Shown here in pieces: positions 59,679 through 64,000 of a stretch of 64,000 bases of DNA (positions are counted from its first letter, which is position 1; each line of letters opens with the position of its first letter). Below the pieces are notes generated by a model. That model was not told the DNA's origin. It saw only the letters and a program-made list of their open reading frames with translations, and did no database searches. A program made the translations under genes and the position numbers. Origin of the DNA: Alcanivorax sp. (GTDB taxonomy: Bacteria > Pseudomonadota > Gammaproteobacteria > Pseudomonadales > Alcanivoracaceae); the NCBI GenBank assembly GCA_022565695.1, contig JAIUME010000003.1, forward strand, positions 248,001 through 312,000, written 5' to 3'.

Positions 59679-60701
59679 TCAGGGAGACCAGGGGTGCGAA
59701 GCCCGGTATTCGCCGGGCGTCATGCCGGTCCAGCGGCGGAAGGCCTTGAACAGTGTGCCCGTCTCGGTATACCCCAATTGCTGTGCTATGGCCTCGAAAG
59801 ACAGTAGTCCCTCGCTGATCAATTGCCGGGCCCGATGGGCTCGTACCTGATCCACTAACTGCCGGAAAGTGGTGTTCTGGGCCTGGAGTCTGCGCTGCAG
59901 GCCGCGCACGCTGATATGCATCAGTTCGGCAATCTGCTGCTGCGCGGACACCCCTTCCATACTGCCTCTGGGCAACTGATCGCGGATCAGCGCCGTGATG
60001 TCGTCGCTGAAAAAGCGTTGGCGCAGATTGCCCAGTTCACGCCGTGCCTGTGCCAGTGCCTGCTCCAGCGAGGCCGTCTCGCTGGCCGGATTGTGCTGAT
60101 CGAGAATATGGCGGCTGAAGCAGATCTCATCGACGTCGCAGCCGAAATGTACCGGGACGCCGCTCAGTTCGCGCCAGAGATGCGGGTGAGAGGGCGTGGC
60201 TCTGCGCAGCCGGATATGGGCATCCGGGGCGCGATCAATGCCCAGCAGCACACCGCCCAGCCGCAGGATGCCGTTGATCATCGCCTCGGTCTGCTGGGGA
60301 TGTTGCTGTGTTTCTGACACCGGCAGCACCTGAACGCGGCAGGTGTCTCCGTGGACCTGCAGGTCGAGACGGTCTGCCTCGCTCAGCAGCGGCCAGAACT
60401 GCCGCGCATGATGCAGCATTTGCCAGCCATCCTCGCTGTGGTGCACCAGTGACAGCAGCGGGGCAATATCGCTGAGCAGTGTCTGGTGGCCAATCCGTAA
60501 CCCCATGCAGGGGTCTCGCAGCCGGTTGCTGGTGTAGCAGTAAAGGCGATAGATGAGCGCGGCATCCGCCCGCTGACTGTCGTGACAGATATCGGACAAT
60601 GGCGATCCCGCCGCCGCACTCAGCTCTTCCAGGGACAGGCCGTGACTGACCCAGTAACGCAGATCACTGGCCAGCAGGGCGGGGTGTTTGGTCAGCTGCA
60701 T
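59679..60701 (-). CDS. AraC-family regulator with an OruR/ArgR-type sensor domain
   Basis: A 340-residue regulator. The N-terminal part (about 1-200) resembles the Arabinose_bd domain of pseudomonad AraC proteins. The C-terminal AraC helix-turn-helix has SFEAIAQQLGYTETGTLFKAF and RRWTGMTPGEYRASH. The ligand is unknown. It is divergent from the beta-helix lipoprotein gene across a 190-base spacer (60702-60891) with no other gene, so it may control that cassette. Confidence 0.92.
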   Translation of the reverse strand: MQLTKHPALLASDLRYWVSHGLSLEELSAAAGSPLSDICHDSQRADAALIYRLYCYTSNRLRDPCMGLRIGHQTLLSDIAPLLSLVHHSEDGWQMLHHARQFWPLLSEADRLDLQVHGDTCRVQVLPVSETQQHPQQTEAMINGILRLGGVLLGIDRAPDAHIRLRRATPSHPHLWRELSGVPVHFGCDVDEICFSRHILDQHNPASETASLEQALAQARRELGNLRQRFFSDDITALIRDQLPRGSMEGVSAQQQIAELMHISVRGLQRRLQAQNTTFRQLVDQVRAHRARQLISEGLLSFEAIAQQLGYTETGTLFKAFRRWTGMTPGEYRASHPWSP

Positions 60702-60891
60702 GGCCCAGCCTTCACGCTTTCTTTATTCATCCTTCACACTCTACCCCATGGTGGCACTTTGGTACCACACGACACCTGCGCACCAAGACAGGCGTGTGAT
60801 GCCATTGTCTGTGTCAGGGGCTGCTACGAATATCGGATGAGTCACAACTTACAAGCAGAACTCATAGTCAAAACAATAACGGGAGAGCCCC

Positions 60892-62337
60892 ATGATCGAT
60901 GTCCTTCACCTGGTCTCACGGCAGCGGTGTGCCGCCGCAGTATTAGTGGGCGCCAGCGCGCTGCTGGTCGCCTGCGGTGGCAGCAGTAGTTCCAGTTCCA
61001 GTGGCCCGGTATTTCCACCCGGCGCGATCATGCTGGACGCGGATGATCTGACCGAAAGCGCCAAGACGGCCTTCATCACAGCCTCGCCGGGGGATGTCAT
61101 CGTCTTCCCTGAAGGGCATTTCATGATCGACGACACGCTGACGCTGGACGGCGTGACCAGTGGCCTCCACAACGTCACCCTGCGGGGTTATGGTCGGGAG
61201 CGTACAACCCTGGATTTCTCAGGCTCCGTCGGCGGGGATGGCATCTATATCCAGAATGCCAGCGACATCACCATTCGTGACCTGACAGTGATCGAGGCCA
61301 ACAACAACGCCATCAAGCTGCTCGGTGTGGACGGCGTACATATCCATCACGCAGGTGCGGAATGGCGGGGCGATCTCACTTCGGATAATGGTGCCTATGG
61401 GCTCTATCCCGTGGAGTCCAGCAACATTCTGATCGAACATTCCTACGTGCGTGGTTCTGCTGACGCGGGTATCTATGTCGGTCAGTCCCAGAATATTGTC
61501 GTCCGGCATAACATTGCCGAAGAGAACGTCGCCGGGATCGAAATCGAGAACTCCAGCAATGCCGATGTCTACGGCAACATTGCGCGGCACAACACCGGTG
61601 GCATCCTGATCTTTGATCTGCCAATTGGTAATAGCATCTACGGCAGCACGGTGCGGGTCTTCGACAACGAGATACAGAGCAACAATACGGATAACTTTGC
61701 CAACCAGAGCTCCAATCCGGCCGGTGTTCATATTGTACCGCCAGGCACCGGGGTTATCGTGCTCGCCACCCGGGATGTAGAAATCTATAACAACCGCATC
61801 AATGATCATGATACGACTGCGATCGCCATTACCGACTACCAGATAGCGGGCACACCCAACGCCGATGTGATTGCGGACGGTTTCCGGCCGACACCGCGCA
61901 ATATCCATGTGCATGATAACGAGATTGGTGAAAGCGGTGCTGATCCGCGCGGTTTGCTGATTGAAGCGATCGTCGCGCCGGTGTTTACGATGATCGGTGA
62001 AGGCATGCCGGCGATTCTGTACGACGGCCTCGGTGAGGTGCTGGCCAATCAGGGCTATTCCGCTGGTCTGGGAGAGACGCCTTTTGCGGCAGATGGTTCG
62101 GATAACGTCTGCGCTGCGGACAACGGCGACATAACAGTCGGCTACCTGTTCGATCCCTCTGACGATTCCGATCTGCAGTTTCATGAGGGCGAACCCATTC
62201 CGCGGCCTGCGGTGGACACCGGCAACGCCAGCGCCATCTTCTGTACACAGACACGCCTGTCCGCATCCGCTGCCACCATCAACGGCGTTACCTATGGTTG
62301 CGGCGAGGATGATGACGGCGACGCCTGCCAGCTGTAA
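60892..62337 (+). CDS. Parallel beta-helix lipoprotein (TIGR03805 type)
   Basis: A 481-residue lipoprotein: the lipobox LLVAC ends at Cys28, followed by GG and a serine run. The body is a right-handed parallel beta-helix of imperfect turns with repeated N-N-x-I and V-x-x-N-x-I motifs (NASDITIRDLTVIEANNNAI and NIVVRHNIAEENVAGIEIEN). Members of this family sit next to SO2930/HNE_0200-type proteins, exactly as here. No polysaccharide-lyase catalytic motif stands out. Gly at +2 suggests outer-membrane sorting. Two cysteines near the C-terminus (C-T-Q and YGCGEDDDGDACQL) could form a disulfide. Confidence 0.85.
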   Translation: MIDVLHLVSRQRCAAAVLVGASALLVACGGSSSSSSSGPVFPPGAIMLDADDLTESAKTAFITASPGDVIVFPEGHFMIDDTLTLDGVTSGLHNVTLRGYGRERTTLDFSGSVGGDGIYIQNASDITIRDLTVIEANNNAIKLLGVDGVHIHHAGAEWRGDLTSDNGAYGLYPVESSNILIEHSYVRGSADAGIYVGQSQNIVVRHNIAEENVAGIEIENSSNADVYGNIARHNTGGILIFDLPIGNSIYGSTVRVFDNEIQSNNTDNFANQSSNPAGVHIVPPGTGVIVLATRDVEIYNNRINDHDTTAIAITDYQIAGTPNADVIADGFRPTPRNIHVHDNEIGESGADPRGLLIEAIVAPVFTMIGEGMPAILYDGLGEVLANQGYSAGLGETPFAADGSDNVCAADNGDITVGYLFDPSDDSDLQFHEGEPIPRPAVDTGNASAIFCTQTRLSASAATINGVTYGCGEDDDGDACQL

Positions 62338-62382
62338 TGCTGTTCTGATATCTGCAGATGTCTGTATGAGTACCCCGGGAAG

Positions 62383-62418
62383 CCTGTCATGGCGGTGATT
62401 CATCGCCGCCATGACAGG
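62383..62418 (+). promoter_or_regulatory. 13-bp perfect stem-loop between the two lipoprotein genes
   Basis: CCTGTCATGGCGG, a ten-base loop and CCGCCATGACAGG form a perfect stem about 45 bases after the beta-helix stop and 28 bases before the next start. No U-tract follows. It may stabilise the upstream message, attenuate transcription or bind a regulator. Confidence 0.65.
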
Positions 62419-62445
62419 TGACCCTTCTCCGTAGAGGAATCTCTG

Positions 62446-63618
62446 ATGCAAGCAGTACGCACTTTGATGTTGTGTATGCTGGCGGGCATATTGTTGCCTG
62501 CATGCGGTGGCAGTAGTAGTGGTGGGACAGCATCCGGGGGACAGGAATGTGGTATCCGGGACGGCGACATAGATCGCGCTGCACTGATGCAGAACATGCC
62601 ACGATTATCCGACTATGGTCTGTTTCAGGATGCCTGTAATCCTACCGCTTTCCCCCGTGAAAACGGTGTCCGCTACGAGCTGACCAGCAGTCTGTTTTCC
62701 GATTACAGCAGCAAGTACCGCTTCGTCTTCCTGCCGCCAGGTGAGTCGGCCACATGGCAGGATACCGAGGCGTTTCAGTTTCCGGTGGGCACGGTCATCA
62801 CAAAAACATTTTCCATGCCGAACGATACGGCCCATCCGGGCTTCGATAATGAACGCCTTCTCGAAACTCGTCTGTTGATCCGACGGGCGGGCGGCTGGGT
62901 TGCGCTGCCGTACATCTGGAATGAGGAAGGTAATGACGCGACGCTGCGTATCACGGGTGGCGGTATACCGTTATCAGTGGTGCATAACGGTGCCCAGCGT
63001 GACTTCACCTATCGGGTCCCAGACGCCAATCAGTGCAGTGCATGTCATCAGTTCCGTGTTGACGGCACGGCGGTGATCACACTGATAGGGCCAAGGGCAC
63101 GCAGCCTGAACAGAGACGTTGATTATGGTGCCGGCCCGGAAAGCCAGTTGGCCTACTGGGTGGATGAGGGGCTGCTCAGTGATGCCCCTGCAGATATGGA
63201 AACGGTAGACACAGTGCCCGGCTTTTCAAACGACGATGCAGCCTTGATTCCGGGCATGAGCGATGCGGATTTGTTGCGTACGGCAAAGGGCTATCTCGAT
63301 ATCAACTGCGCGCATTGCCACCGCCCACAAGGCAGTGCCAGCACCTCGGGTCTCTTTCTGGAGTTCGGGCGCGATTTTGATTCCCAGCCAACGCAGCACG
63401 GTGTCTGCAAACGTCCGATTGCCTTTGGTGGTGGCGCGTTGAGTTACGACATTGTGCCCGGCAGCGCTGCGGAGTCGATCCTGCACTACCGCATGGGCAC
63501 CTTGCAGCCGGGGCACAGTATGCCAACGGTCGGTAAAGCCACGCTACATACCGAAGGTCTGGCGTTGATCGGTGCCTGGATCGACAGAATGCCCGCATTT
63601 GACTGCGATGGTGCCTGA
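62446..63618 (+). CDS. SO2930-family diheme c-type cytochrome-like lipoprotein
   Basis: A 390-residue lipoprotein with the lipobox LLPAC at Cys20 and then GGSSSGG. The N-terminal domain has MPRLSDYGLF and ELTSSLFSDYSSKYRFVFLPPG, typical of the SO2930/HNE_0200 family (TIGR03806). Two CxxCH haem-c motifs occur: CSACH at 197-201 and CAHCH at 288-292. GTLQPGHSMPTVGK follows, with a methionine that may be an axial ligand. The mature protein should be a membrane-anchored diheme protein. The function of the family is unknown. The stop shares one base with the next, related gene. Confidence 0.85.
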   Translation: MQAVRTLMLCMLAGILLPACGGSSSGGTASGGQECGIRDGDIDRAALMQNMPRLSDYGLFQDACNPTAFPRENGVRYELTSSLFSDYSSKYRFVFLPPGESATWQDTEAFQFPVGTVITKTFSMPNDTAHPGFDNERLLETRLLIRRAGGWVALPYIWNEEGNDATLRITGGGIPLSVVHNGAQRDFTYRVPDANQCSACHQFRVDGTAVITLIGPRARSLNRDVDYGAGPESQLAYWVDEGLLSDAPADMETVDTVPGFSNDDAALIPGMSDADLLRTAKGYLDINCAHCHRPQGSASTSGLFLEFGRDFDSQPTQHGVCKRPIAFGGGALSYDIVPGSAAESILHYRMGTLQPGHSMPTVGKATLHTEGLALIGAWIDRMPAFDCDGA

Positions 63619-64000
63619 TGTTTCCGGGTCTCGTCAGGCGCCACCGACTGCTGCTTCCGGCACTGGCAGCGGCAACGGTGCTGGCGGGATGCGGCGGCGA
63701 TGGACGCGGGAGCTCGTCCGTATCTCCGTGTGAGGCGGTGGGCGAGGGCGTCAACTGGGCGGCACTGGCCGAGCGGAATTGTCCGCAGCTGGCTGATTAC
63801 CGTTTGCTGGACGAGCTGGGTGATCCCCGCTATCCGGCACAGTTGTTCGAGCCCTCGGTGGCCCTGTTTACGGACTATGCGCGCAAGACCCGTGCGATAT
63901 ATCTGCCTCCGGGTGGGCAGATGCAGTTCGACGATACCGCGCCCTTCGCTTTCCCTGATGGCAGTGTGCTGTTGAAAACCTTCTCACTGCCGACCACGAC
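63618..64000 (+). CDS. Second SO2930-family lipoprotein (truncated by the window end)
   Basis: The first 127 residues of a lipoprotein. The lipobox TVLAGC ends at Cys25 and is followed by GGDG. After it come CPQLADYRLL, VALFTDYARKTRAIYLPPGG and FPDGSVLLKTFSLPT. They align with MPRLSDYGLF, SSLFSDYSSKYRFVFLPPG and FPVGTVITKTFSMPN of the preceding gene, so it is a tandem paralogue. The ATG overlaps the previous stop by one base. Whether it has the CxxCH motifs lies beyond the window. Confidence 0.82.
   Translation, partial: MFPGLVRRHRLLLPALAAATVLAGCGGDGRGSSSVSPCEAVGEGVNWAALAERNCPQLADYRLLDELGDPRYPAQLFEPSVALFTDYARKTRAIYLPPGGQMQFDDTAPFAFPDGSVLLKTFSLPTT

Follow-up and report, generated by a model that had tools for sequence, protein, structure and literature searches.

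The closest described counterparts of the genes treated here are SO_2930 and SO_2931 of Shewanella, which are listed as outer-membrane c-type cytochromes in the accessible text of three papers (PMC4837345, PMC12175506, PMC5357785), one of which places SO_2931 in a group of five outer-membrane cytochromes whose functions are partly redundant (PMC12175506). Elsewhere in the literature, as far as its text was available, the two names occur in lists and a network table, and SO_2931 as a possible disulfide reductase; they are absent from PMC4335978 and PMC3271074. No function proper to either protein, or to the associated beta-helix family, was found in the accessible literature, a weak negative as subscription journals were mostly uncovered. 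This article describes a locus of the same families at the end of a 64,000-nucleotide stretch of Alcanivorax sp. DNA (the window; contig JAIUME010000003.1, positions 248,001 to 312,000), in which the gene of a beta-helix lipoprotein is followed by two genes of SO2930-type diheme lipoproteins. The locus itself belongs to a catalogued pair, TIGR03805 and TIGR03806, without a characterised function; what is new is a likeness of the first haem domain to cytochrome P460 and an apparent second cassette that combines haem proteins with such a beta-helix.

From the gene order of Shewanella sp. ANA-3 and the description of SO_2931 as 'diheme' in the available part of one paper, SO_2930 is inferred to be a fused beta-helix cytochrome and SO_2931 its paralogue. 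The assignment of SO_2931 fits two observations: according to the same text S. algae has no homologue of it, and the fusion is carried without the second cytochrome by S. chilikensis and S. indica, which stand near S. algae. The Shewanella and Alcanivorax loci share the same families in the same order. They differ in that the fetched Shewanella loci encode the two domains as a fused protein, mostly with a second cytochrome beside it, whereas in Alcanivorax the genes are separate and an AraC gene lies divergently upstream; in 24 of 28 Shewanella loci the AraC gene is adjacent downstream on the other strand.

A sequence-only reading of the window had proposed an AraC regulator divergent from a beta-helix lipoprotein, a diheme cytochrome and its diheme paralogue, and all four open reading frames are present where it placed them. 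The beta-helix gene occupies positions 60892..62337 and the first cytochrome gene 62446..63618, both on the + strand; the second cytochrome gene begins on the same strand at 63618, with its 5' part reaching the end of the window at 64000. The contig continues beyond this point, and the second cytochrome is complete, ending at C3:312754 of the contig (L003:8754 of the fetched locus). The beta-helix protein scores 401.1 bits against TIGR03805 (cut-off 141.5), and the cytochromes score 373.1 and 314.2 bits against TIGR03806, the latter barely above the cut-off of 313.3. The closest named relative among the matches listed is Alcanivorax limicola, with 85% identity across the whole first cytochrome. 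As had been noted, all three proteins have a glycine after the lipidated cysteine (LLVAC/G, LLPAC/G and VLAGC/G, in gene order), a residue that predicts sorting to the outer membrane without telling which face. For haem attachment the genome has a CcmF-type gene, and for type II secretion a GspD gene, so that haem loading and export to the surface are possible.

The pairing of the two families is real and very strongly conserved. In a survey of 397 genomes spread evenly over the phylum, TIGR03806 exceeded its cut-off in 44 and TIGR03805 in 53; every one of the 44 genomes with the former also has the latter. Where both occur, the genes are adjacent on one strand, with the beta-helix first and the domains less than 1500 bases apart, in 47 of 47 genomes, a number that includes the genome studied here and three with fused proteins below the TIGR03806 cut-off; six weak rows of one of the two family scans and 36 weak or partial rows of the other were dropped from this count. 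The pairing that the first reading named is borne out. The two domains form one chain in 52 of the 126 beta-helix proteins of all fetched loci, a collection that leans towards Shewanella, and the carriers of the fusion include Shewanella, Ferrimonas, Endozoicomonas, Halieaceae and others. The search for relatives covered the best 80 of 587 matches and is strongly biased towards Shewanella (28 of the 77 loci counted); among the matches listed, relatives occur in Bacteroidota, Kordiimonas, Halieaceae and Alcanivorax. Lipoboxes and regulators were counted over 77 of the 80 loci of this first set and over 48 of 56 loci of a second set taken from the 397 genomes, the others having no beta-helix called by the simple gene finder or lying at contig ends. 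Among the relatives, 42 of 126 beta-helix proteins and 33 of 107 unfused cytochromes do not match a crude lipobox pattern, and lipidation may therefore not be general.

The first haem domain of the SO2930 proteins looks like a cytochrome P460/c'-beta domain by fold comparison, profile alignment and conserved residues, which agree with one another, and a distant relationship is accordingly judged quite probable. The AlphaFold2 model of the first cytochrome of the window has a predicted local distance difference test score (pLDDT) of 89.5 and a predicted template-modelling score (pTM) of 0.84. When the candidates of Foldseek were compared with it by VIA-align, rows 1 to 12 all belonged to P460/c'-beta structures (six proteins, several entries each), as did 15 of the top 17, with model residues of about 41-245 (62566..63180) covering some four fifths of the P460/c'-beta chains and ending 20-50 residues past the first CxxCH motif. 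The weight of this predicted match lies in one haem-protein superfamily filling the top rows, among the families listed in the VIA tables, not in the Z-score. Sequence comparison points the same way, though weakly. By hhalign, the stretch from Arg92 (62719..62721) to FPxGTVxxK, ending in Lys120 (62803..62805), was aligned with the same stretch of P460 proteins, with an E-value of 9.3e-5 for one pair and a probability of 58.9%. A hidden Markov model (HMM) built from P460 sequences placed 63 SO2930 proteins in the first 80 of 1751 (159 SO2930 proteins in total); these are not independent events because the SO2930 rows are mutually related. The Pfam family of cytochrome P460, PF16694, touches SO2930 genes of four genomes (G058, G139, G062 and G214) over model positions 16-119 of 125, with E-values of 0.2-0.8.

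Several results weigh against this relationship. The best VIA-align Z-score is 5.7, which is not significant alone, as models without relatives often reach 7-8, and Foldseek by itself gave no match under an E-value of 0.24; of its 610 matches 50 were listed, and P460 was not among them. PF16694 stays below its 27-bit cut-off in every SO2930 gene (14 bits at best), which is why the domain is not filed as a P460 member, and its SO2930 matches are confined to four genomes of one family, with none in the genome of the window. The hhalign match covers 33 columns. Among the controls, the beta-helix family reached 57.2% through lipoprotein leaders and the c4 family 41.7% through the second haem motif, where the c-type likeness is genuine; the remaining controls reached at most 21.4%. 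The best P460-HMM domain runs from well upstream into the first CxxCH motif in only 2 of 150 proteins, and c4-type proteins also stand within the first 25 of that search, where other haem proteins score a little. Apart from this comparison, searches of the PDB with the sequence of the cytochrome or of the beta-helix protein found no relative, and the cytochrome profile returned one chance-level row (E 0.69).

The residues that would line such a pocket are conserved throughout the family. Counts and tree are based on 97 of 157 rows, after an 80% identity filter and prior removal of domains shorter than 230 residues. Both CxxCH motifs (residues 197-201, 63034..63048, and 288-292, 63307..63321, in the first cytochrome) are kept in 97 of 97 non-redundant members, and the two motifs per cytochrome that the first reading pointed out are therefore not chance. 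Lys120 is found in 96 of 97, Arg92 in 95 of 96, and Glu140 (62863..62865) and Met359 (63520..63522) in all 97. Arg92 and Lys120 presumably correspond to Arg44 and Lys70 of the P460 of N. europaea, an equation made from the profile alignment together with the P460 sequence. In the available text of the P460 review, Lys70 is the cross-linking lysine of that protein and an Arg44Ala mutant forms no link (PMC11928373). A lysine-haem bond in the SO2930 proteins is less assured than the relationship itself. In the model Glu140 lies on the strand after Lys120; it is not cleanly aligned in the extended hhalign output, so that its proposed equivalence to the distal carboxylate Glu96 of P460 is one of strand order only. 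Apart from Met359, the histidines of the CxxCH motifs and His290 inside the second motif, no histidine or methionine is invariant or 90% conserved, which leaves haem 1 without an obvious sixth ligand; Met359 probably serves haem 2, as in electron-transfer cytochromes. The window protein is like P460/c'-beta in its predicted beta-rich haem domain, the CxxCH motif near its end and the placing of Arg and Lys. It is unlike it in falling below the Pfam cut-off, in its lipid anchor, in the additional haem domain that bears the Met and in being paired with a beta-helix protein. Word searches found no P460 link of the SO2930 family in the literature or in the accessible text of the P460 review (PMC11928373), again a weak negative with subscription journals mostly uncovered.

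The second cytochrome is 43% identical to the first. In a maximum-likelihood tree of the 97 cytochrome domains, a single group with support 100/99 takes in 20 of the 21 second-position cytochromes. The window gene falls there beside genes of Ferrimonas, Shewanella, an Alcanivoracaceae and a further gammaproteobacterial metagenome assembly, and only a Hydrogenedentota pair departs from this pattern. To judge from tree and alignment, the second cytochrome is an old, retained duplicate with the same pocket residues, although its exact place is unsure because of its long branch.

The partner protein was read from the window as a parallel beta-helix acting as a surface scaffold or binding partner. 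The fold stands. It was judged from the predicted structure of the Shewanella sp. ANA-3 fusion (pLDDT 84.3, pTM 0.61, the latter being the reason that no domain interface is claimed), and the structure rows are headed by the alginate epimerase/lyase entries 8jaz (Z 32.7) and 8ja4 (32.6), followed by AlgE4 (31.3) and the lyase RbmB (30.9), with NosD at 28. The epimerase and lyase matches span about 300 residues, as for a mannuronan C5-epimerase or polysaccharide lyase (PL) fold, and in the PDB the beta-helix profile weakly matched RbmB, AlgE4 and further folds of the pectin-lyase kind. In the window the TIGR03805 domain covers residues 59-379 (61066..62028), followed by a C-terminal tail (62029..62334) with four cysteines that by eye resembles the linker of the fused Shewanella protein. 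An alignment of 42 of 126 rows (70% filter) was used for the conserved patch, and 22 diverse sequences have 32 invariant columns, among which Tyr, Asp, Glu and Asn are grouped; Y169, P173, D191, Y195, E217, E219 and N220 form an invariant patch (61396..61551), and all of these except P173 were named among the invariant columns of the 22. With so many invariant columns on an epimerase/lyase fold, scaffold is too weak a term.

Taken together, the locus has about an even chance of being a conserved outer-membrane redox enzyme unit in which the beta-helix holds a ligand. Haem 1 would be five-coordinate and reactive, in a P460-like pocket with Arg and Lys; the beta-helix would hold a ligand, a glycan or another molecule of the outer surface, near it; haem 1 would oxidise either this ligand or a small co-substrate, for example hydroxylamine or peroxide; and the Met-ligated haem 2 would pass the electrons to periplasmic carriers. 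The set may thus be a surface enzyme that has gone unrecognised; a mere wire for electrons, in particular a metal-reducing one, is less likely. The proposal made from the window, that the haem proteins transfer electrons at the outer membrane, agrees with the listing of SO_2930 and SO_2931 as outer-membrane cytochromes in the accessible literature; simple transfer is doubtful because one of the two haems seems to sit in a P460-like domain. In a bolder version, held only tentatively, the SO2930 proteins would be two-haem P460-type outer-membrane oxidoreductases whose haem is bonded to lysine, and they would work on a ligand or side chain seated in the conserved cleft of the epimerase-fold beta-helix. 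This would amount to a haem enzyme with a carbohydrate-type binding module, an arrangement that would have arisen two or more times, each time with another haem partner. What speaks against the main reading is that the neighbours outside the core vary.

The most serious rivals are the handling of hydroxylamine or nitric oxide (NO) and the maturation of a beta-helix side chain. In the former, an unlikely case, the P460-like haem would oxidise hydroxylamine or bind NO in the envelope, with the beta-helix a mere scaffold. Lys120 and an invariant Glu are present, and oxidation of hydroxylamine by characterised P460 proteins goes with the Lys cross-link and the distal carboxylate Glu96, according to the part of the review available (PMC11928373); the role of Glu140 as that carboxylate again depends on strand order, and neither the constant beta-helix partner with its invariant patch nor the existence of a cassette that has a CCP/MauG gene but lacks SO2930 would be explained.

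That cassette was met among the exceptions to the pair. Six of the 53 TIGR03805 genomes lack TIGR03806 (loci L143, L144 and L154-L157), and in all six a beta-helix protein with a CxxCH motif of its own adjoins a gene of the diheme CCP/MauG type; a second two-haem gene, called c4-like by us, and a TonB receptor gene are each found in five of the six, and a membrane AraC gene in four. PF03150 gives 185.2 bits in the single CCP/MauG gene scanned, and the single beta-helix scanned by Pfam has, besides the beta-helix, a C-terminal cytochrome c stretch below the cut-offs (19.6 vs 27 and 19.5 vs 21.3 bits). A second, seemingly independent haem-beta-helix cassette thus exists alongside the TIGR03805/TIGR03806 pair, and since all 53 genomes over the TIGR03805 cut-off have one or the other, the beta-helix is always tied to a c-type haem protein in this sample. 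Conversely, three genomes have TIGR03806 and no TIGR03805, and their four proteins are fusions of SO2930 with GSDH, a pyrroloquinoline quinone (PQQ) dehydrogenase (1196-2369 residues; L139:6869-10459, L140:7383-13499, L141:6380-13489 and L142:6720-13193), as expected if the SO2930 domain were an electron-accepting module; those of L141 and L142 also carry planctomycete-type PSD/PSCyt domains. From both kinds of exception, SO2930 emerges as a redox module for various partners and the beta-helix as a partner for various haem proteins.

Envelope proteins are paired with diheme proteins in MopE/SACCP and MbnP/MbnH, and MauG and MbnH oxidise side chains of partner proteins. By analogy, the haem protein could oxidise a side chain of the beta-helix and so make a cofactor or metal site, an explanation to which we give little probability. 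It would account for the CCP/MauG gene beside the beta-helix in six of six TIGR03805-only genomes and for the invariant Tyr169 and Tyr195, and MauG-like proteins, some of them in the surface fraction of Methylococcus, make prosthetic groups in the accessible text of PMC4831470. The CxxCH motif in those six beta-helices suggests electron transfer instead, Trp158 is missing from them, and no MauG-type gene lies beside the system of the window. MopE/SACCP, MbnP/MbnH and the MauG-type surface cytochromes that PMC4831470 describes in Methylococcus are alike in setting an envelope protein beside a diheme protein and come nearest to the second cassette; they are unlike the window, where Pfam does not class the cytochrome as CCP/MauG and a beta-helix takes the partner's place.

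Extracellular electron transfer to metals or electrodes, as by the outer-membrane cytochromes of Shewanella, is very unlikely. In its favour, besides the membership of SO_2931 in the group of five (PMC12175506), a transcriptome grouped it, raised, with iron and manganese oxide reduction (PMC5955497), both as given in partial text. Against it, each protein has two haems, a look at 134 loci found no extra gene with at least three CxxCH motifs up to three genes away from the core, and with it no decahaem gene of an Mtr-type conduit, and the relatives reach Bacteroidota, Kordiimonas, Halieaceae and Alcanivorax. Loss of cathodic current was 95.7 +/- 3.2% in a seven-gene deletion including SO_2931 and 88.2 +/- 6.7% with mtrC omcA alone in the available part of that study (PMC5829830), so similar that no separate share of SO_2931 is visible.

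A beta-helix that itself acts as an epimerase, lyase or hydrolase of polysaccharides, with the cytochrome as an accessory, would suit the top structure rows (8jaz, 8ja4, AlgE4, RbmB), and D191, E217 and E219 could serve a hydrolase, but it too is improbable, as the haem partner is left unexplained and no histidine is invariant or 90% conserved in the 22 sequences (rung register against AlgE uncompared), whereas the catalytic residues of AlgE are Tyr149, Asp152, His154 and Asp178 in the text available (PMC7385640). The beta-helix family shares with the AlgE A-module a right-handed beta-helix at Z 31-33 over about 300 residues; it differs in having no invariant His and in being tied to haem proteins. 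Judged by spacing, the AlgE motif YGxDPH may be represented by YGxYPV here, an idea that is not counted as shown.

The AraC-family gene (59679..60701, - strand) encodes a PF12625 N-terminal domain (Arabinose_bd, 58 bits) and an HTH_18 domain (PF12833, 69.3 bits); with 142.4 bits it falls below the cut-off of 250 of NF049968, the model for QhpR regulators. The divergent region between it and the beta-helix gene (60702..60891) has long blocks identical to A. limicola, two species being compared, and no sigma-70-like site is listed in it. Control of the set by the AraC protein, as first proposed, is probable from the divergent arrangement, and as a general trait it did not hold. A gene for an AraC, membrane AraC or TetR protein is directly adjacent in 46 of the 77 first-set loci (Shewanella 24 of 28, others 22 of 49) and in 10 of 48 second-set loci, which include the six of the second cassette, none of them scored as regulator-adjacent. 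A local regulator is common, not general, and its kind changes between lineages.

The beta-helix gene ends 108 bases before the first cytochrome gene begins, the two cytochrome genes share one base (TGATG), and a fourth open frame beyond the window (L003:8774-9427) has its ATG 19 bases past the second cytochrome; given this spacing, the three lipoprotein genes and the small frame likely share one transcript. PlcR is a phospholipase C accessory protein. The small frame has a weak similarity to it (31.3 bits vs a cut-off of 99.1, scanned with two extra N-terminal residues) and is 53% identical in A. limicola. On the opposite strand, convergent with the cassette, lies a pectinacetylesterase-like gene (PF03283, L003:9473-10864), 94% identical in A. 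limicola. Among the labelled loci, both genes are confined to the two closest ones of Alcanivorax.

Neighbours in other loci, counted without the short copies L001, L002, L004 and L085-L113, include TonB receptors (by Pfam for four) and a FadL gene (by Pfam) and, named by eye only, a VolA-type lipase, an arylsulfatase, an aldehyde dehydrogenase and a second FadL. As these are not general, no substrate is read from neighbouring genes. In the case of the VolA-like gene, found in 19 Shewanella-type loci, synteny may be the whole explanation. The FadL/TodX-type channel gene (PF03349, L135:5299-6594) lies directly upstream of a fused beta-helix cytochrome, and the FadL-like gene seen by eye lies near the pair in L123. 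In Bacteroidota the arylsulfatase-like gene directly follows the cytochrome in six of seven loci (L074, L075, L076, L082, L083 and L084; not L070).

The pair, with both families over cut-off, is carried by 44 of 397 sampled genomes, and it is also found in the model Shewanella. If haem 1 is P460-like, these proteins would be enzymes, and a 460-nm band in the spectrum would be strong support. The P460 superfamily would then be widened to membrane-anchored, two-haem, partner-bound forms, and the beta-helix family would gain a pointer to its function.

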